From NCBI GenBank assembly GCA_000223315.2, contig AFUS01000004.1:434001-498000 (forward strand): a stretch of 64,000 nt of DNA, given 5' to 3'. Position numbers and translations under genes: made by a program. The notes beneath the pieces were generated by a model. That model was given only the letters and a program-made list of their open reading frames with translations, made no database searches and was not told the DNA's origin. Below are positions 38,390 through 50,105 of this stretch, piece after piece. The DNA is from Parvimonas sp. oral taxon 393 str. F0440. Its GTDB lineage: Bacteria; Bacillota; Clostridia; Tissierellales; Peptoniphilaceae. The first letter of the stretch is position 1, and every line of letters starts with the position of its first letter.

Positions 38390-38728
38390 ATGAAGGTAAA
38401 AAGAGGAGATATTTTTTATGCTGATTTAAGTCCCGTTGTAGGTTCTGAACAAGGAGGCGTAAGACCTGTACTAGTTGTTCAAAACGATGTTGGAAATAAA
38501 TATAGTCCTACTGTTATTATTGCAGCTATAACTTCTCAGATGAATAAAGTCAAACTTCCAACACATGTCGAAGTTTCTGCAGAATTTGGGCTTCCCAAAA
38601 ATTCTGTAGTATTGTTGGAGCAAATAAGAACCATAGATAAAAAAAGACTTAGAGAAAAGGTTGGCTTTACAGATGAGTTCTTTATGAAAAAGGTTAATGA
38701 GGCGCTTTTAAAATCTGTTGGAGTTTAG
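38390..38728 (+). CDS. mazF: MazF/EndoA-type endoribonuclease, no antitoxin beside it
   Basis: Sequence-specific mRNA interferase fold. 112 residues starting with [21 protein letters not shown], then RPVLVVQND and the catalytic-region residues TSQMNK and [14 protein letters not shown], nearly identical to the Bacillus EndoA pattern. No antitoxin reading frame lies in the 195 bases upstream, nor downstream. It could be a solitary conserved toxin with a distant antitoxin. The ribosome site is poor. Confidence 0.93.
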
Positions 38729-39628: not shown

Positions 39629-40737
39629 ATGAATAAATTTAATAGAAGTGTTATAGGATTGTTATTATTTTGTTTGGTTTTTGGAGCTTGTTCAAAACAA
39701 AGTAAAGACGTAGATTCTAAAAATGAGATTAAAAAGAATGAGAGTACAAGTTTTAAGAAATTCTCAAAATCTTTTTTTGGCGTTTTTGATACAGATATAG
39801 CATTTAGTGCTTATTGTGAGAATGAAGAGGAATTTAATAAATATTTTAAAGTATTGGAAGAAGATATGAAAAGATATCACAACCTTTACAATTCTTTTGA
39901 AAATGCAAGCGAAAATAATATAAAATCTATAAATGACAATGCCGGAAAAGAACCTGTAAAGGTTGATAAAGAGATTATAGAGCTGTTGGAATTTTCTATT
40001 GAAAATTACAAAAAATTGTCTGATAAAAATAATATTGCTTTAGGAAGTATAACAGAACTTTGGAGAGCTGAAAAAGATTCTGCAGTTAATCTTAAAGGAA
40101 AACTTCCGGATGAAAACAAAATAAAAGAGGGATTAAAACATACAGATATTAATAATATTGTAATTGATAAGGAAAAGAGTACGGTTTTTATAAAAGATAA
40201 GGATATGAAGCTAGATGTTGGGGCTATTGCAAAGGGTTATTCAGTTGAAAAAGTTATGAATAAATTAAAATCAATGGGATTAAAATCTGCAATAATTTCA
40301 GCTGGAGGAAATGTAAAAGCAATTGGAAGCCCTTTAGAAAAAGATAAAAATAAATGGGGAATAGGAATTCAAGATCCAAAGTTTGATTCTGACAAAGTTG
40401 ATATTAAAGAGGTTATTTATACTGATGAAACTTGTGCAGTAACGAGTGGTGATTATCAAAGATTTTATTTTGTAGGAGATAAAGCATATAATCATATTAT
40501 TGATCCAAAAACCGGTTATCCTAAAGATAAAATTAAAAGTGTAACAGTTTTATGTAATGATTCCGGTCTTGCAGATTTTCTATCAACTAGTTTATTTTTA
40601 ATGGATGTTGAAGAAGGAAAAAACTTTTGGAAAAAGTAAATGGAGCAGAGGCTTATTGGATACTTTCTGACGGAAGTGTACATTATACTGAAAAAATGGA
40701 AAAATTGTTAAAAAGTAAGGGAGCTACAAATAAATAA
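39629..40737 (+). CDS. apbE: FAD:protein FMN transferase ApbE, lipoprotein (one frame break)
   Basis: Attaches FMN to Thr or Ser of membrane redox proteins such as Rnf or Nqr subunits, outside the cell membrane. Lipobox VFGAC near residue 21. Family marks: DVGAIAKGYSVEKVM, SAGGNVKAIG and HIIDPKTGYP with TSGDYQRFY. The frame breaks near 40618-40623 and one A restores the C-terminal 33 residues; joined length 369. No Rnf genes are in the window. Confidence 0.92.
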
Positions 40738-40752
40738 AGTTAATTATATATC

Positions 40753-40781
40753 AAAGTTAGGATTCTTTCCTAGCTTTTTTT
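40753..40781 (+). terminator. Terminator after apbE
   Basis: Stem AAAGTTAGGA / TCCTAGCTTT with one G-U pair, followed by T-run. Confidence 0.7.
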
Positions 40782-40848: not shown

Positions 40849-40907
40849 TTGAACATTGTTCATAAAAGTGCTATAATATTCAATGTAAAAATAATGAACA
40901 TTGTTCA
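40849..40907 (+). promoter_or_regulatory. Promoter with two TetR-type operators
   Basis: TTGAAC (40849-40854), 17-base spacer, TATAAT (40872-40877). The 13-base inverted repeat TGAACATTGTTCA covers the -35 at 40850-40862 and recurs at 40895-40907 in the leader, 45 bases apart. This layout suits repression by the TetR protein encoded next. Confidence 0.75.
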
Positions 40908-40928
40908 GTTTATAAAAAGGAGAGAATT

Positions 40929-41509
40929 ATGACTAATATTAAAGATAAAAAAATGAGTAAAGAATATAAAATTATTCAAGCTGCACTTGATATATTTCAG
41001 GAAAAAGGATATGAGAAAACGACGATTAGAGATATTATGTTAAAAACTGAGTTTGGGTTGGGAACTTTTTATTTATATTTTAAAAGTAAACAAGATTTAA
41101 AAGAAAAATAATTTTAGATAAAGCTATTAATTTAGTTGTTCAAGCTGAACATAAATGTACACAAACTGATCCTATTGAAAGATATACTTGTTTTGTGAAT
41201 TATATCATTGATTATTTGATTGAAAATCCATTCGATTTAGAGCTAATATCTCAAAATATTAATTGGACTTTATATACAAAGATTGAAAATGATAAAAGAT
41301 TTATAGAGGCTGATACAACTTTAAAGTTTATACTTAGTAAGTATGAGAAGTTGTTTTCGCATAAATATTCTTATTCACAAAAGTTATATATCCTTTCATT
41401 AACCATAGAAATAGTAATTTCTACTTGTAAGAGTGCAATTATGAAAGATTCTATTTTATCAATTGATGAAATGAAAGCTGTTTTATTTGAAGTAATAAAA
41501 AAATATTGA
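40929..41509 (+). CDS. TetR-family repressor (one frame break)
   Basis: N-terminal helix-turn-helix typical of TetR (KIIQAALDIFQEKGYEKTTIRDI, then GLGTFYLYFKSKQDLKE). The A-run 41104-41108 needs one base to join the ligand-binding domain; joined length 193. It sits directly behind two identical operators and ahead of an exporter, so autorepression with control of the exporter is expected; the inducing ligand is unknown. Confidence 0.9.
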
Positions 41510-41527
41510 TAAGTAATGGAGATTAAT

Positions 41528-43580
41528 ATGAGAAAATTTACAAAATTTATTTCACACCATCCAAGACTTGTGTTATTAATAATGACAATGTTATTGATTC
41601 CGTCAATAATAAGTTACAAAAATACAGGAGTAAATTACAATATTCTTTCATATTTACCTGCTGATTTAAAGTCTACTCAAGGACAAAATATTTTAGATAA
41701 AGATTTTAAAAATGCAGCTACAGTAATGGTAATTTTAGATGGTAGTGATAGAGATGCTGAAGAGTTAAAAAAAGAAATAATGAAAATAGATGGTGTAGAA
41801 GATGTTATTTCAAGAACATCAATAATTGGAGATTCTATTCCCAGTGATTTTTTATCGGATAAAATTAAGAATATTTTTTATTCCAAGGGAAGTACATTGA
41901 TGATGGTAAAGTTTAATGAACCGGCTTCATCATTCAAAACTATGAATGCTATCGAAAGCATAAGAAATATTCAATCAAATAAAAAATATTTGAGTGGAGT
42001 AAGTTCACTAGTTAAAGATACAAAGGATTTAATAGATAAAGAGACTGTTATTTATGTCGGGTTAGCAATTGTTTTAGGCTTAATTATATTGAGCATTACT
42101 AATGAATCTACTGTTATTCCTTTTGTGTTTATGTTAACAATAGGATATGCGGTTATTTATAATTTTGGAACTAATATATTTTTGGGAGAGATATCGTATT
42201 TAACAAAAGCTATTGCAGCTGTTCTTCAATTAGCGGTGACAATGGATTATTCAATTTTTTATATCACAGGTATGTTGAAGAAAAGAAAAAAGAAATAGTC
42301 GTAATGAAGCGATGGACAGGGCAATTCAAAATACATTCACTTCCTTATTTTCATCTTCACTTACAACAATTGCCGGTTTTTTGGTTTTGATTTTAATGAG
42401 ATTAACATTAGGAAAAGATATTGGACTTGTAATGGCTAAAGGCGTTCTAATCGGTTTGTTATGTACAGTAATTGTACTTCCACCGATGCTTTTAATTGCA
42501 GAAAAAGCTGTAAATAGATATAATCATAAGGTTTTGTTACCTTCATTTAATCGATTAGCTGATTTTGATATTAATAAAAGAAAAATTTTAGCATTAGTAT
42601 TTATATTGCTTTTTATACCTGCTATTATAGGTTCTAATAATACAAAACTTTATTACAATCTTGATAGATCTTTACCACAAGATTTAGATTCAATTGTTTC
42701 GTTAAATAAAATGAAAAAAGATTATAATATGGCAAGTACACATTTTATTATTGTTAAAGAAGATTTATCAAACTCAAATTTAACTTCTATGATTGATGAG
42801 TTGGAAAAAGTTGATGGAATTAATAGTGTATTGAGTACACATTCTGTAACTGGAGTTACTTTACCTGCTGAGTTTTTGCCTAATAAATTAAGAGATAATT
42901 TTGTGAAGAATGGCTATCAAATGATAATGATAAATTCGGAATATCAAACCGCATCACCTGAAGTTAATAGACAAATAGAAAAAATCAGAAATATTATTTC
43001 AAAATATGATGATGAAGGATATCTAACAGGAGAAGCGGTATTGACCGATGATTTGACAGAAGTTTCAGAAAAAGACTTCAAAATGGTGAATATTGCTTCC
43101 ATAATTACCGTATTTATAATTATAGCAGTTGCATTTAAGTCTATTGGAATACCAATTATCTTAATATCTGCAATAGAATTGGCTATTCAGATTAATATGG
43201 CTATTCCTTATTATTTAGGTCAGACTATTCCATTTATCACATCAATAATAATAGGAGTAATTCAATTAGGATCAACTATAGATTATTCAATTTTGATGAC
43301 TGACAGATTTTTACATGAATATAGAAAGACAAAAGATTTAAATAATTCTTTGAGAGTTTCTGTAAAAGAAACTTCCAAGTCAATAGTAACAAGTGCATTA
43401 TCTTTTATGGCTGCAACTATTGGGGTAGGACTTTATTCAAAAATGGAAATAGTATCTACAATATGTATGTTTTTAGCCAGAGGAGCTATTATAAGTATGT
43501 TAGTAATAATAATTTTATTACCGGCTATATTGAGTGTAACTTTTCCATTTATTAAAAAAACAACAAAAAATTTAGTATAG
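41528..43580 (+). CDS. MMPL/RND-family exporter (two frame breaks)
   Basis: Large membrane transporter of 684 residues after adding a T at 42255-42260 and an A at 42293-42295. Two halves, each with one helix, an external domain and five helices; the proton-relay DYSIF and DYSIL segments sit in the paired helices. ATG 41528 with GGAG upstream. Similar MMPL proteins export lipids or peptides. It overlaps no neighbour and lies 18 bases after the TetR gene. Confidence 0.87.
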
Positions 43581-43594
43581 AGGAGAGGATGATA

Positions 43595-45917
43595 ATGAAT
43601 AAAAAATTTCAAAAAATTGTAGCATTAAGTTTGCTTTTTTCAATGGTTATTGTGAATGTTTCATTTGCACAAGAAAATAATGTAATTAAGAAAAGCGAAA
43701 CGCTTTATGTAACAGTAGATGGTGATGAAATTAAAGATAAAACTGTATCAGTTTGGTTAAATTCCAATAAAAATATAAAAGTAAAAGATAAATCCAATTT
43801 AAAAGAGGTAAAAATTTAAAAACAGATGAAAAAGTTTTAGGAAAAAATGGATATTTAAACTGGAACGAAGATAAAAAAGATATATATTATCAAGGAAAAA
43901 CTGATAAAGATTTACCTGTAGAGTTGACTGTAAAATATTATTTGGATAATAAAGAAATTAAAAATTCTGAATTAGAAGGAAAAACCGGACATTTAAAGAT
44001 AGTTTTAAGTTCTAAAAACAATAGATATGAAACAAAAAGTATAAACGGAAAAACAAAGATGTATATTCACCATATATCGTGGCAACAGCTATGATTTTTA
44101 GTGATGATAAAGTAAGCGATATAAAATCAGATGATGTAAAAATAGTTAAAGATGGTAAAAATCAAATAGTAACATCAATTTTGACTCCCGGATTGAAGCA
44201 AAATTTTGAAGATATTTTAAAAGAAAAAGATTTAAAGCTATTTAAAGACACCATTTCATTGGAAATGGAAATAAAAAATTACAAACCGATAGAAATCTAT
44301 TCAGTTATTACAAATGAATTATTCCAAGAAAAGAAAAATATTGATTCACTTGATAAATTAAAGGATGGGATAAAACAATTAGAAGATAATTCACAAAAAT
44401 TATTTGATGCTTCTGTTAAATTAACAGAAGGGCAAGACAAATTGAATGATGGAATAGGTCAAATGCAAACAGGAGTAAAAAAACTCTATTCAGGAACAGA
44501 AAAATTATCTGATTCAATGAAAACAATTAAGAGTAAATTTGATTCTCTAGAACCAAAAGTTGGAGTAATTCAAAAGTATATTTCTGAAATGTATGAAGGC
44601 AGTGTGAAACTATTTAACGGAGTAAATATTTATACAGGAGCTGTAGGTGAAATAAATAAAAATGTTGAAAAAATTCAATATGGAGCAACTCAACTTGATA
44701 AAGGTTCAAGTGATTTAGATAATGGAGTTGGAAAGTTAAAATATGCTACTGAAAAGATGAAAGTTGGAACTAAAAAACTTGATAATATAATTGCTCAAAA
44801 AGATGAATTATTAAACAAATCATCACAATTATCTCAAGGCTTGACTAATTTGGGAAATAGCTATGGAACATTACTCTCAGGCATCGAACAAATTTCAAAA
44901 AAATCTACTGAATTAAAAAATTCAACTCAAGAATTTAATAGTAAACTTCATCAAGTTGAAAATTCAATAAAAAACTTAAATTCTAATATTTCTTTAGAAA
45001 ATGATATTAAAAATTTAGAAGCAAAAGCAAATAATATTCAAAAAGTCATTAATGATTTATCAAGCAAAAACAAAGATGGAAGTTTGACATCTGAAATATC
45101 AATTTTAAATAAAACGAAAAATGATTTGTTAGATGAATCAAAAACTTTAAGAGCAAAACAATCAGCATTGGCTAAATTAAATACTTTAGGACAAACCATG
45201 TCAAAACTGGTAACTAATTCAGATATGCTATTGAAAGGCAATACCGATTTATCAAATGCTTTATCAAATGTTTATGAAAAGATGAATGAGACAAAATCAC
45301 AATTGGAAAAATCTTCTTTAGAATTAAACAAAGGACTTTCAAAAATAACAGAAAGTTTGAAAGGAGATGACTTGAATATTTTAAAATCATCAATTGAACA
45401 ATTAGATGGAGCAACCGGAAAAATTAAAACTGGAACTGAAAGTTTAAAATCAGCTACTAATCAAAATAAAGTTGCAATGGGAATGTTACAATCAGCGATG
45501 AGTAAATTAGATGAAAATTCTAATTCTTTAAAGAATGGTTCTGGGCAATTATCTAAAGGATTGAGAGAATTTAAAAACCAATCCGGAATTTTAAATTCAT
45601 TATCACAAGTAAAAGAAAAAGCTGTTATCCCATTTTCAAATGCTATTAATTCACTTAATGAAGGACTTAAAAAAATGGATTCAAGCACTGACCAATTAAA
45701 AGAAGGTAGCGACAAACTGACTTCTTCACAAAAAGAATTTAGTTCAAAATTAGGAGAATTCAAGCAAAAAGGAATTGATGAATTGGAAAACAAAACAAGG
45801 AATATAAATACATTCAAAGATATTATAGATGTAATGTTTGATATGTCCAAACAAAACGCATCACTTACAGGAACAGATGATAATTTTGACACAAAATCTA
45901 GAATTATAGAAAAATAA
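43595..45917 (+). CDS. Secreted heptad-repeat coiled-coil protein (two frame breaks)
   Basis: 774 residues after adding an A at 43810-43814 and at 44049-44053. A signal peptide (cleavage after SFA near residue 27) is followed by a beta-rich domain (about 30-220) and a long region of seven-residue repeats of the xxxLxxG kind (LTEGQDKLNDGIGQM, LDKGSSDLDNGVGKL). This type of repeat occurs in YhgE/Pip proteins and in proteins paired with MMPL exporters. No C-terminal membrane helix is seen. AGGAGAGG upstream. Confidence 0.82.
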
Positions 45918-45943
45918 AATAAAAGTTATAATAAAAAGATGAG

Positions 45944-45980
45944 AACCCCTAAAAACTTATAAAAAGGATTAGGGGTTTTT
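45944..45980 (+). terminator. Terminator of the TetR-MMPL-coiled coil operon
   Basis: Nine-base stem AACCCCTAA / TTAGGGGTT and five T. Confidence 0.8.
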
Positions 45981-46211: not shown

Positions 46212-46240
46212 TTGACAAAGAATATGTACTATGATAAAAT
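46212..46240 (+). promoter_or_regulatory. Promoter of the BspA-like gene
   Basis: TTGACA and TAAAAT with a 17-base spacer; the transcript would start just before the AAGGAGG ribosome site. Confidence 0.6.
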
Positions 46241-46262
46241 TCATTTTAAGGAGGATATTAAA

Positions 46263-49200
46263 ATGAAAATCAAAAAAATTTTATCTTATGTAGCATTACT
46301 TTCCATTTTGTTGACTGTAATGCCGATTAGCAGTTTTGCTAATGAATCGGTTTCGGTTGCTAGAAACTATACTGACGAAAGTAAATTTGTATTTGACGAA
46401 AACACAAATACAATAACTAAATTTACAGGCGATGATACAGAGGTAGTTATACCTACAAAAATTAATGGTGTAGAAGTTAAAGCCATTGGTAAAATGGCTT
46501 TTAAAGGGAAAAAATAAAGTCTGTTGTTTTAAATGAGGGAATGGAAATTATAGGGAACGGTGCTTTTGCAGGTGTTACAACTTTAGAAAAATAAATTTCC
46601 CATCAACATTAAAGAAAATTGATGATATGGCTTTTGTAAAAACATCATTGAAAGAATTGAAACTAAATGAAGGTTTGCAAGTAATAGGTAAAAGAGCATT
46701 TTCTAATTGTTCTTCTTTACAAAAAATTAATCTTCCTAATTCTTTGACTAAAATTTCCGATAATGCCTTTGAAAAATGTAAAATCTCTAATGATATTGTA
46801 TTTGGAGAAAATTTGGGACATGTTGGACATAAAGTCTTTTCCGGTAATGGTAATGATATAAATATTAGTATTTCTGAAAAGGGAAATAAATTGTTCTTAC
46901 ACGATGAACTATTCCTAAAAAATCAAAATGAGTTAAACATTCCACAAGGAAGAGAAATTATGCTTTTTGTAAGAGCTTTCTGTGACGGATCTTGTAGTAA
47001 TCTTAAAAAAATAACTTTGAATTGCGGTGAAATAGAAGTTAATGAAAACGACTCAAAAGAAGATATAATTAAAAAATTAAAAGATAAAATTAAACTTACA
47101 TCAGGATTTGTAAAAATAGGTGGTGCAAGTGATGGTTCTTTGGATGAGTATTTTGAAGCGGGGATAGATTTTAATGTAGATAAAAATTTAACTGACGGTT
47201 CGATTATTTCAGGAAAATTCAATAAGTTTAAGGATGAAGATTATTTAAAAGCGAATCAAAACAAAAATTTAATAGAATCCGTTTTGGATAGATATGAAAT
47301 TAAGGTAAGAGTTAGGACTATTACAAATAATAAAGAATTTAATGCCGAAGACTTTAAATATGAAGAGGTAAAAAATAAAATAATTTCAAAGAGAAGTTAT
47401 TTTGGAATCTCCGGTTTTTCAGAAAAAGGTCTTGAAAAATTAAAGACAAATAGGGATTTGGTAATTCCAAAAACTGTTATAATTAAAGAAAATGGTGTTG
47501 ATGTTGAGAAAAGGATAGAAGGTATTTGTTCCAAAGCATTTGAAAACAAAGAACTTAATTCAGTTAAGATAAATATTTCAGAAGGATACAATGAATACAT
47601 AATCGATACGGGAGCTTTTCAAAAGAATAATTTAAAAGAGTTTGAAATTCCTGATGGTGTTAAATTTATAGAATCCTATGCTTTTAAGAATAATAAAATC
47701 AAAAAACTATTTATTCCACAAACTGTTGTAAAAGTTGGAAATGAAAGCTTTGCGTATAATGAGATAGAAGAACTTAAAGTTTCAGATAGTGTTTCTCTAT
47801 TTCAATTTGACTCTTTTAGTTTTGCACACAATAAAATTAAAGAGGTAGATTTACCATTTAGTATATTTAAACTTCTTCAAAATGTATTTGTTGAAAATAC
47901 CGGAAATGAAGATGGAAAAGTTATTTTATACACAAGAAATAAAAAACATTTGGAAACTTCGACTTACATCAATCCACATAGTGATTATCATAAATTTGTT
48001 TTAGTTGGTAAAGATGTTAACCGTAATAAACTTCAAAAAATACTTGAAATAGCTAAAGAATTGGATAAATCGGACTATGAAACTACAAGTTTTGAAAAAT
48101 TAGAAAATATTTATGCAGAAGCAAAAACTATTATGTTAAATCATAATTCAACACAAAAAGATATTGATGAAATAACAAAAAGTTTAAGTAAAGCAATCGA
48201 AAATTTGGTTCCAAATGGTGCAAATAAAAAAGCATTAATAAAAAATATTTCAAGATTAAGTAATATTAATAAAATTCTATATACAGAAGACTCATATAAT
48301 AAGTTTATAGAAGAACTTGAAAAAGCGAAGGCTGTAGTGAAAGATGCTTCAGCTAAACAAGATGATATTGATAAAGCACTATTGGAGTTATTAAAAGCGG
48401 AAGGAAAACTTGTTTTAAGTGAAGAAGCAAAATATAACAAGAATGATTTTATTTTTGAAGGCACTAAGATAGTAGGTTTTTCAGAGCTTGGAAAGGAAAA
48501 ATCAGGATATAACAAAAATTTAATTATTCCTAATAAAAACAAAAAAGGAGAATCTATAACAGAAATTGGAGATAATGCTTTTGAATATACAGGAGAGTAT
48601 GAATATACAACAGATACTGGAGAATCATTAAATGGTCTTTTAAGTGTTGAAATTCCAAAAACAGTAAAGAAAATAGGAAAAAGTGCTTTTCAAAAGAATA
48701 AGTTAAAGGAAGTTATCTTACCGGAAGGATTGGAAGAAATAGGAACACTTGCATTTAATGGGAATCAATTAGTGAGTATTGAAATACCCGATTCAGTTGT
48801 TAAAATGGGAGAAGGAACTTTTTCATTAAATAATATTTCTTATGCAAAACTTTCTAAGAATATGAAAACTGTACCAAATGGTATTTTTCAAGAAATCTTA
48901 ATTTGAAAAACATTGACATTCCTGATGGTGTAGAAAAAATCGGTCAATCAGCTTTTTCAGGTTGTCCATTGGAAAGTATAAATATTCCAAATACTGTGAA
49001 AAAAATAGAAAGATATGCTTTTTTATCACATAGAATTACAACTCTTGAAATTCCATCATCAGTTGAAACTATTGAAGATCAAGCTTTTGCTTCAAATAAA
49101 AAATTCAGATATTTAAAAAATTTGATATTAAATGAGGGACTCAAAATAATAGGAAAAGACGCATTCAAAAGTTGTCTAATTGAAGAAGTTGTTATTCCAT

Positions 49201-50105
49201 CAAGTCTAACATTTTTAGACAAGAATGCTTTTAATGACAATATGGATAGTGAAAAAAATGTTATTAAAGTTAAAGTTTACACTTACAATAAAGAACATCT
49301 AAAATTTGAGCAAAGTAAACATCATGAGATTATATTAAAAGATGTAAATCTTGAAAATTTAAAAACAGAAATAGAAAAAGCAAAAACTATTAAGAATTTT
49401 GATAAATATATTTATTCTGATGAAAATATAAAATCAGATTTTGATAAGATTCTTAAAGATTGTGAAGAGGCTTTAAATAATCCTATAAGTCAAAAAAATA
49501 TCGACATTTTAACAAAAGCTTTAAGTGAAAGTTTGTCAAAATTAAATGGTGTTAAACCGTCTAATCCTGAAGAAAAACCTGAAGATGAGTTGATTACAAC
49601 ATTAATTGATCCAAAAACTAATATTTCAGTTTCAGGGAAAAGATTATTAGACTTTATACTTGTTGTTGAAAAAATAAATGGAGAAGACTTCTTAGCATTT
49701 AAAGGTAAAGATGTTTCAATCTTTGACATCTCATTTGTAAATAAGATAACTAATGAAAAAGTTAAAATTAAAGATGGTGATTATACAGTTTCAATTCCTA
49801 GAGAAAAAGGTAAAACAGTAAATAAGGTTTACTATATTGACAAAAAAGGAAATCTGGAAGAAAAAACTTTTACTCAAAATGAAAAATCTATAATATTTAA
49901 AACAGGACATTTTTCAATGTATGCAGTTGAGTATAAAAAAGGAAATAATGAAAAAGATAAAATAATAGATAAGGATAAAGTTATAGATAAAAATAAAACA
50001 AATAAAAAATTACCAAAAACAAATATCTCCAGTAATTCGATATTAGTTCCGACTTTATTAGGAATAGCGAGTATAATAATAAAAAGAAAAAATATAAGTA
50101 ATTAA
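46263..50105 (+). CDS. BspA-like leucine-rich repeat surface protein, LPXTG-anchored (three frame breaks)
   Basis: 1281 residues after adding one A at 46509-46514, 46587-46591 and 48893-48895. Signal peptide ending SSFA; several blocks of LRR_5 repeats of the pattern IPxxVxxIGxxAFxxN (residues about 60-180, 350-480, 730-960); two FIVAR-like helical modules (about 580-720 and 1030-1100); then a beta domain and a C-terminal sorting signal LPKTN, hydrophobic stretch and KRK tail. Such proteins of oral anaerobes bind host matrix or other bacteria. It is the only sortase substrate seen here. Confidence 0.9.

Follow-up and report, generated by a model that had tools for sequence, protein, structure and literature searches.

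A TetR-linked MmpL-type exporter in Parvimonas is paired with a secreted coiled-coil partner of an undescribed family

How the RND/MmpL pumps of single-membrane bacteria with a thick wall pass hydrophobic substrates past the membrane is, in our judgement, an open question. It is raised by a locus in a 64,000-nucleotide stretch of the Parvimonas sp. oral taxon 393 str. F0440 genome (hereafter the window), where a TetR repressor, an MMPL/RND exporter and a secreted xxxLxxG coiled-coil protein share one promoter with two operators, a putatively self-regulated gene unit of Clostridia. The original prediction had described this anatomy correctly, and offered two roles for the coiled-coil protein (hereafter the partner): a substitute for an adaptor, or the exporter's client.

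The features of the unit are collected in Table 1. While the predicted gene content stands, the original prediction missed that the genes do not form single open frames in this assembly: tetR and the exporter gene are each broken once and the partner gene twice, and the reported 774-residue protein is a span rather than an ORF, the partners of congeners having 776 and 778 residues. As all three genes are whole in congeners, and the 290-aa gene and ApbE gene immediately upstream are broken as well, we read the breaks as a probable local assembly error; further along, at 50.2-52.5 kb, three genes are intact. With all three genes broken, activity of the unit in strain F0440 itself is putative.

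Table 1. Coordinates of the unit within the window.
Feature	Position	Strand	Basis or remark
Terminator-like hairpin between unit and upstream ApbE gene	40753..40777	+	Pattern scan
Promoter TTGAAC-17-TATAAT, TG before -10	40849..40877	+	Pattern scan, 10/12 matches
Operator 1	40850..40862		TGAACATTGTTCA, overlaps -35
Operator 2	40895..40907		Identical TGAACATTGTTCA copy, 45 bp downstream, between -10 and tetR start
tetR repressor gene	40929..41509	+	TetR_N PF00440, 3.9e-13; broken near 41.1 kb
MMPL/RND exporter gene	41516..43580	+	PF03176; about 689 aa if whole; broken near 42.3 kb
Secreted coiled-coil partner gene	43595..45917	+	TIGR03057, 2.4e-16; about 776 aa if whole; broken near 43.8 and 44.1 kb
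Partner Sec-type signal peptide, ending ..NVSFA	43595..43672	+	By eye
Partner N-terminal beta domain	43691..44364	+	Coordinates via alignment to congener L036
Partner LxxG heptad coiled-coil region	44364..45850	+	TIGR03057 repeat; relatives' alignment; Finegoldia model
Partner C-terminal strand, predicted to complete beta domain	45882..45914	+	Finegoldia relative's model
Terminator-like hairpin after partner gene, CCCCTAA...TTAGGGG then T-run	45942..45980	+	By eye

The two 13-base operators proved to be exact copies, the first overlapping the -35 element as originally proposed. No further exact copy of TGAACATTGTTCA exists in the genome of 1.48 Mb, where the reversed pattern, searched as a control, gave 0 matches. 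In 60 shuffles of the promoter region that preserved base composition, the paired arrangement was never reached. When up to two mismatches are permitted, the pattern occurs five times in the whole window against 5.1 expected, which is not above chance. The promoter scan covered 5.7 kb and gave 60 promoter-like matches, this promoter among them, against 42.6 expected; by eye, relatives have a similar promoter layout. The pattern scan that found the upstream terminator-like hairpin missed the one following the partner gene.

Twin operators recur in relatives' loci, at 22/38 same-strand and 22/33 divergent promoters, using a fixed spacer of 3 and a score threshold of 6 that was chosen once the scores were known; the same search found no paired operators at the other 16 and 11, respectively. 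The tetR starts of L041, L042 and L044 were shifted by hand for this search, since in these loci the longest ORF started ahead of the operators or within them. Operator half-site and TetR recognition helix co-vary, which may be a single evolutionary change. A TetR_N DNA-binding domain at residues 15-57 (Pfam scan) identifies a TetR family regulator. The repressor probably binds the twin operators, and it would occupy both, one covering the -35 and the other lying past the -10, until released by the substrate or a similar molecule.

The original prediction was staked on the three genes co-occurring in relatives, and it held up. Among the 80 best-matching loci, hereafter the named loci, three were not evaluable with contigs ending 55-222 bases from the exporter. 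In all 77 others the partner adjoins the exporter: 69 times downstream, five times upstream, and three times fused in-frame at the exporter's C-terminus (L085, L100 and L103). A TetR gene adjoins the pair in 58/77 loci and was not found adjoining the other 19, three of which have little upstream sequence. The pairing was also seen in 20/20 relatives examined (22 had a match). Within a phylum sample of 299 genomes, own genome included, the beta domain adjoins this exporter type in 29 of the 33 genomes that encode it, and 29 of 31 exporters scoring >600 bits have an adjoining beta domain, the two exceptions being G329, where the contig ends, and G307, whose beta domain is on a separate contig. 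Beta-domain genes occur without this exporter in three of the 33 genomes (G223, G297 and G267, the last a weak partial match). Across 52 loci, pairwise distance correlations were 0.83 for exporter-partner and 0.37 for exporter-TetR, with partial correlations of 0.81 and 0.03, respectively, where TetR is represented by the best-scoring protein per locus and not always the adjacent one. The exporter-partner correlation may largely reflect shared descent.

Such tight linkage, together with secretion of the partner, would also fit a surface protein that is exported or assembled by the pump. We nevertheless consider this client role very improbable: the partner carries a Sec-type signal of its own (lipobox-like in 18/65 partners by a loose rule), and in three loci it forms one chain with the exporter. 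Furthermore, the substrates known for MmpL-type pumps are small molecules and lipids. The partner appears to be soluble in the Parvimonas clade and an apparent lipoprotein in some other hosts.

Both pieces of the broken exporter match PF03176 (MMPL; 7.6e-15 and 3.1e-30), revealing two MMPL-type halves, and the C-terminal piece shares 99% identity with a segment of an unbroken 689-aa frame from congener G004. Each half has an Asp-Tyr pair (D244-Y245 and D590-Y591), invariant in 18/18 aligned exporters; such pairs form the proton relay of MmpL3. Among solved structures the exporter is nearest to MmpL4/5 by sequence (1.2e-37), and so, by structure, is the exporter part of a fused relative's model (2.2e-28). 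It lacks the coiled-coil insertion (PD3) in the second ectodomain: exporter lengths are 684-760 aa (n=73) compared to 975 for MmpL4 and 967 for MmpL5, and MmpL4 residues 569-719 (about 150) have no counterpart in the exporter profile, the middle of the alignment being matched via an internal repeat. We considered whether the partner's coil could derive, within this phylum, from one once carried in cis, a scenario unsupported by the larger MMPL paralogues. Four such Firmicutes proteins (L167-L170, 804-861 aa) carry roughly 40-90 extra residues near the place of the MmpL4 insertion, and by eye these are not LxxG heptads.

The heptad-repeat character ascribed to the partner is borne out by TIGR03057, at 59.1 bits against a curated cut-off of 18.6. 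The N- and C-terminal ends are conserved around a coil of variable length. Pfam and NCBIfam scans of relatives' beta domains gave no family, including none that binds ligands; MmpS and the N- and C-terminal domains of YhgE/Pip were not matched by any model in either library, and Pfam scans of the window pieces, 35 beta domains and the full Finegoldia partner gave no HlyD-family profile. The partner represents an undescribed protein family, and no paper on the exporter-partner pair was among the titles and abstract openings listed from open-licence PMC literature.

It is conceivable that the partner is a sensor or scavenger, binding an outside amphiphile (a fatty acid, bile acid or antimicrobial) that it passes to, or signals through, the exporter while the wall is not spanned. 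A precedent is offered by FarER of Staphylococcus aureus, where a TetR-family regulator and a pump underlie inducible linoleic acid resistance (PMC12671165 and PMC10019231). We regard this role as improbable, given that no ligand-binding family was matched in Pfam or NCBIfam and the long coil is left unexplained.

To examine the fold of the partner, a Finegoldia relative was modelled with AlphaFold from an alignment of 60 of the 65 untruncated, unfused partners, five long or divergent ones being omitted (A3). The model places a beta domain at residues 31-245, with block means of 89-97 as far as residue 240, helices at 251-755 and a C-terminal strand at 766-776 (block means 90-96). This last strand of the chain apparently completes the beta domain, and the predicted architecture is thus one of base and coil, with the coil inserted in the beta domain. 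Coil confidence is about 39-82 by block, so that a single hairpin is at most tentative. Alignments to beta-sandwich structures extend to residue 777. When the model was searched whole, the mu-homology domain matched with Z 11.5 over 185-198 residues at an rmsd of about 4, a likeness without sequence support. Foldseek with the whole predicted model placed 3g9h (2.8e-4) at rank 5 behind four coiled-coil rows (chemoreceptor and Rad50 coils), which we take as coiled-coil matches, as we do the coil-driven PDB sequence matches to myosin and SMC. No RND adaptor and no lipoyl plus beta-barrel fold was present among the 50 fold matches listed.

A role resembling that of MmpS, as a clamp or oligomeriser close to the membrane, is unlikely, albeit less so than the client and sensor roles. 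The beta domain would then serve to assemble or gate the exporter, and the coil would tie the complex to peptidoglycan without forming a conduit. This role would be in keeping with a partner adjoining every evaluable exporter among the 80 named loci, and with strong conservation of the beta domain across partners whose total length ranges between 519 and 1233 aa. PMC12346298 describes MmpS5 as fastening the MmpL5 trimer; it also presents MmpS5 as a TM helix and beta domain without a long coil, and our Pfam and NCBIfam scans found no MmpS match.

The suggestion of a substitute for an adaptor is favoured by three fusions, conserved ends around a variable coil, and a coil inserted in the modelled beta domain, but not by any adaptor-family match. 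A model of the fusion was built from an alignment (A5) that combined 14 exporters with 60 beta-domain fragments and three fused rows, a composition picked after trials. Each part is confident, but with most of the linker <50 and no inter-domain error given, we reject the model as proof of exporter-partner contact.

We consider it fairly probable that the locus encodes a TetR-controlled two-component export system, in which the partner supplies in trans the coil that mycobacterial MmpL4/5 carry in cis. An MmpL-type RND pump without the MmpL4/5 coiled-coil insertion would reside in the cytoplasmic membrane, with the third gene providing a dedicated outer partner exported via the Sec pathway. The N-terminal beta domain and C-terminal strand would form a base close to the membrane and the exporter, possibly in physical contact with the latter, from which the LxxG coil would project into the peptidoglycan as a guide or spacer taking an amphiphilic substrate through the wall, as the PD3 hairpin does in MmpL5. 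By analogy with FarE, the substrate may be fatty acids or other amphiphiles. The coils may also oligomerise into a needle or conduit. That Gram-positive MmpL pumps with a mu-homology-like beta base and a coil assembling into a needle constitute a widespread undescribed class of machine is possible, if doubtful. Such a needle, its coil about 16-70 nm if a single hairpin, would take lipids or other amphiphiles out of the membrane, across the peptidoglycan and up to the cell surface; if true, Gram-positive bacteria would have in it their equivalent of the MmpL5 needle and of tripartite RND pumps.

The surroundings of the pair were inspected in 61 loci, and in 14 of them an ORF on the same strand follows within 100 nt. 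By eye these ORFs represent no recurring family. In L132 and L125 the start of the exporter overlaps with a DUF308 gene, and a similar gene was seen by eye in L116. We inferred no substrate from the neighbour genes. The beta domain matched one of 72,556 plasmid records, and a viral-contig scan gave one locus. Exporter matches in 'phages' consist of eight unannotated records from human faecal samples, which we take to be bacterial DNA.

The partner is a candidate dedicated helper for the RND/MmpL pumps of wall-thick, single-membrane bacteria. It points to a beta-domain family for which no Pfam or NCBIfam entry was found, and places some of the anonymous TIGR03057 heptad proteins in a context. 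With its natural fusions and compact operons, the pair should lend itself to expression and structure determination, and the conserved operators offer a ready reporter for the inducer and hence the substrate.

Several known systems resemble parts of this unit. TIGR03057 X-X-X-Leu-X-X-Gly proteins, YhgE/Pip included, have the same heptad repeat, but TIGR03057 is a 28-position repeat model only and does not cover the partner's conserved beta domain or its C-terminal strand. The periplasmic adaptors of RND pumps (HlyD/MFP, e.g. AcrA) are often lipoproteins, with a coiled-coil hairpin inserted in a base made of both chain ends. The partner differs in having no HlyD-family profile match and in beta-domain fold matches that, among those listed, are mu-homology domains, and its hosts have no outer membrane, nor, to our knowledge, a mycomembrane. 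FarE-FarR is likewise Gram-positive and couples a TetR-family regulator to an exporter of the MmpL class; we know of no coiled-coil partner gene in that system, and its likeness to the present unit is one of description. The nearest solved structures, by sequence and by model, are MmpL4/MmpL5 with MmpS4/MmpS5 (PDB 9b43, 9dp6, 9mvz and 9syj), which share with this pair a pump, a dedicated outside partner and a long outward coiled coil. MmpS4/5 are small beta proteins with a TM helix, whereas the partner here carries a long coil. In MmpL4/5 the coil is inserted in the pump as PD3, which for MmpL5 is described in PMC12346298 as a 125-Å hairpin that builds a trimeric channel, whereas here the pump is without the insertion and the partner bears the coil.

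The exporter-partner system is real and conserved far past the genus. Of 60 relative genomes searched with the C-terminal piece of the exporter, 22 contained a match at a cut-off of 1e-20; 20 of these were retrieved, with G049 and G052 (a match to half of the query, in larger frames) left out. The coiled-coil gene lies behind the exporter in all 20, a second, distant exporter copy in G011 standing outside this count. The exporter itself is split at one of these loci (L040), and the partner reading frame lacks a start at another (L045). Within the genus, the exporter was found in two of five other species; the remaining three (G001, G003 and G005) gave no match, a patchy distribution that may reflect loss or transfer.

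A scan of species genomes with an exporter alignment gave at least 596 matches, the best 80 of which represent the closest relatives rather than a random draw. Of these 80 loci, 69 have the partner downstream of the exporter and 5 have it upstream; 3 encode a fusion, and 3 lack the partner, their contigs ending 55, 61 and 222 bases past the exporter (L069, L080 and L101). Co-occurrence of the trio, as expected from the original prediction of a single operon, thus holds in relatives: the partner adjoins every exporter other than those at contig ends (77/80), and TetR, scored by a 16-sequence profile, adjoins 58 of these 77 pairs (25 on the same strand, 33 divergent). Three of the 19 loci without an adjoining TetR have little upstream sequence. 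At L116, L125 and L132, a gene for a DUF308-like membrane protein (DUF308 by Pfam in L125 and L132 only) lies upstream and shares a few bases with the start of the exporter gene.

In a phylum sample of 299 genomes, including the window's own and G036, the partner's N-terminal beta domain is present in 33 and adjoins this exporter type in 29 of them. It occurs without this exporter type in G223, G297 and G267, and on a separate contig from the exporter in G307. Conversely, 29 of the 31 exporters scoring above 600 bits have an adjoining beta domain, the two exceptions being an exporter at a contig end (G329) and the split case of G307. Exporter matches in G299, G335 and G225 are fragments, and no adjoining beta-domain match was found for the larger, lower-scoring MMPLs (G131, G176, G192, G229, G265 and the second of G201). 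The G223 and G297 loci (L171 and L172) encode beta-domain proteins 649-655 aa long, each with a hydrophobic stretch at the C-terminus, and an adjacent small membrane protein, with no MMPL exporter. Across 52 loci, pairwise distances correlate at 0.83 for exporter versus partner beta domain, much of which may be explained by common descent, and at 0.37 for exporter versus the best-scoring TetR of each locus.

The three fusions are single reading frames of 1283 aa (L085), 1249 aa (L100) and 1636 aa (L103). Each runs from the exporter through a stretch of positive charge and the hydrophobic signal segment of the partner into the complete partner. L085 and L100, which belong to separate assemblies, share 63% identity, so their fusion is not a recent one; L103 and L100 are 38% identical. 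With its signal segment retained, the partner would lie outside and stay tethered to the C-terminus of the pump. Cleavage at lipobox-like sites or re-initiation within the frame is possible.

In the window, the gene order, domains and paired sites of the predicted TetR-MMPL-coiled-coil unit with twin operators are present, but its genes are interrupted, which had gone unnoticed; the frame breaks hence leave this observation partly confirmed. The second hairpin, after the partner gene, was recognised by eye.

Features of the unit and its surroundings in the window (domains from Pfam and NCBIfam)
Feature	Coordinates	Strand	Remarks
Small MazF/PemK-like ORF	38390-38728		named by eye; intact; adjoins broken gene run
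ApbE family gene	39629-40734		E 2.1e-67; frame-broken close to end
Promoter with twin operators and the three genes below		+	flanked by two terminator-like hairpins
tetR	40929-41509	+	TetR_N; 1 frame interruption
MMPL exporter gene	41516-43580	+	MMPL in each piece; 1 frame interruption
Secreted coiled-coil gene	43595-45917	+	xxxLxxG repeat; 2 frame interruptions
BspA-like leucine-rich-repeat surface protein	46212-50105		named by eye; LPKT-type sorting tail; split over three ORFs

A 290-aa gene and the ApbE gene directly upstream of the unit are likewise interrupted, and three genes at 50.2-52.5 kb are uninterrupted. Whole gene copies exist in two congeners (G004; L036 and L037), the G004 exporter being a 689-aa frame, part of which is 99% identical to the window's exporter piece. 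So many successive breaks in otherwise well-conserved genes point to local assembly errors in this genome (1.48 Mb, completeness 89.7%). Alternatively, the unit may have decayed recently in this strain.

Putative operators TGAAC-N3-GTTCA are paired 38-46 bp apart at tetR of the window and eight relatives, while other Clostridia have putative TGACY-N3-RGTCA sites 32-59 bp apart. Counting a score of at least 6 as a pair, the paired-site search detected pairs in 22 of the 38 same-strand promoters, a set that contains the window's own (21 of 37 distinct, L038 and L057 being the same record), and in 22 of 33 divergent promoters; it found none in the other 16 and 11, respectively. For 43 of 44 promoters, 0/60 composition shuffles reached the pair score (1/60 for L124). 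By eye, L047 has one pair 29 bp apart, just beyond the distance limits. The half-site change accompanies a Leu to Lys substitution before GTFY in the recognition helix (8 versus 22 among the 30 repressors displayed). Since the 8 repressors are close relatives, this co-variation may reflect one evolutionary change.

The partner signals are Sec-type in appearance, and are lipobox-like in 18/65 by a loose rule or 15/77 by a stricter rule with fusions counted in. Conservation is found in the N-terminal domain, which carries K-x-E-x-x-Y close to the start of the mature protein, and in the C-terminal strand, with a variable coil between them and lengths of 519-1233 aa (median 809, 65 partners). Several partners from more distant relatives of the window terminate in a short amphipathic tail (e.g. 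FINWLKNLFKK), conserved and preceded by a charged linker, which is possibly a membrane or exporter contact. No convincing Pfam or NCBIfam family was found for the N-terminal domain across 35 members (best Pfam E 0.0026; terminal heptad repeat excepted), and the PDB sequence matches of the whole partner, among those listed, were all to the coil.

An AlphaFold model of the Finegoldia partner, built with 60 sequences (mean pLDDT 72.5, pTM 0.48), places the beta domain at 31-245 and the last strand at 766-776, both with confidence, and helices at 251-755 between them. Fold searches used this whole model; middling Z values are common in such searches, and large models are better searched by domain. 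Ranked by Z, mu-homology domains of clathrin/COPI adaptors occupy 48 of the best 50 rows (Z 10-11.5, ~180-200 residues, rmsd mostly 3.5-5, aligned range up to residue 777); Foldseek returned coiled coils in rows 1-4 and a mu-homology domain in row 5, at 2.8e-4. As modelled, this likeness is a fold resemblance only. Because the modelled chain exits the beta domain and returns there, the coil passes should be even in number, and a single hairpin would measure ~16-70 nm (median 38 nm). The Gram-positive wall is of comparable thickness.

We propose that repressor release would switch on pump and partner jointly. The partner would exit by Sec, its beta base presumably settling on or near the pump and its coil extending into the wall. 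The pump would draw a putative amphiphilic substrate from the membrane, to be passed along or released beyond it. FarER offers a functional precedent in a Gram-positive, with an exporter of this class under TetR control, and is described as conferring inducible resistance to linoleic acid (PMC12671165).

The exporter aligns best with MmpL4/5 by sequence and, in a fusion model, also by structure. The exporters are 684-760 aa long, compared to 975 (MmpL4) and 967 (MmpL5), and MmpL4 residues 569-719 have no counterpart in the exporter profile, the gap position being approximate as the preceding stretch matched through an internal repeat. Larger MMPLs (L167-L170, 804-861 aa) have extra residues near the place of PD3, the mycobacterial coiled-coil insertion, and a C-terminal tail that by eye is bactofilin-repeat-like. 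In MmpL5 the insertion (residues 499-684) is described as a 125-Å hairpin, three of which assemble into a channel (PMC12346298). The coil is thus in cis within the mycobacterial pump, whereas here a separate protein carries it. Among the papers listed by open-literature searches, none described the exporter-partner pair. The MmpL pump is of a known kind; the new element is a separate coiled-coil partner, regularly encoded beside it and carrying a beta domain of no assigned family.
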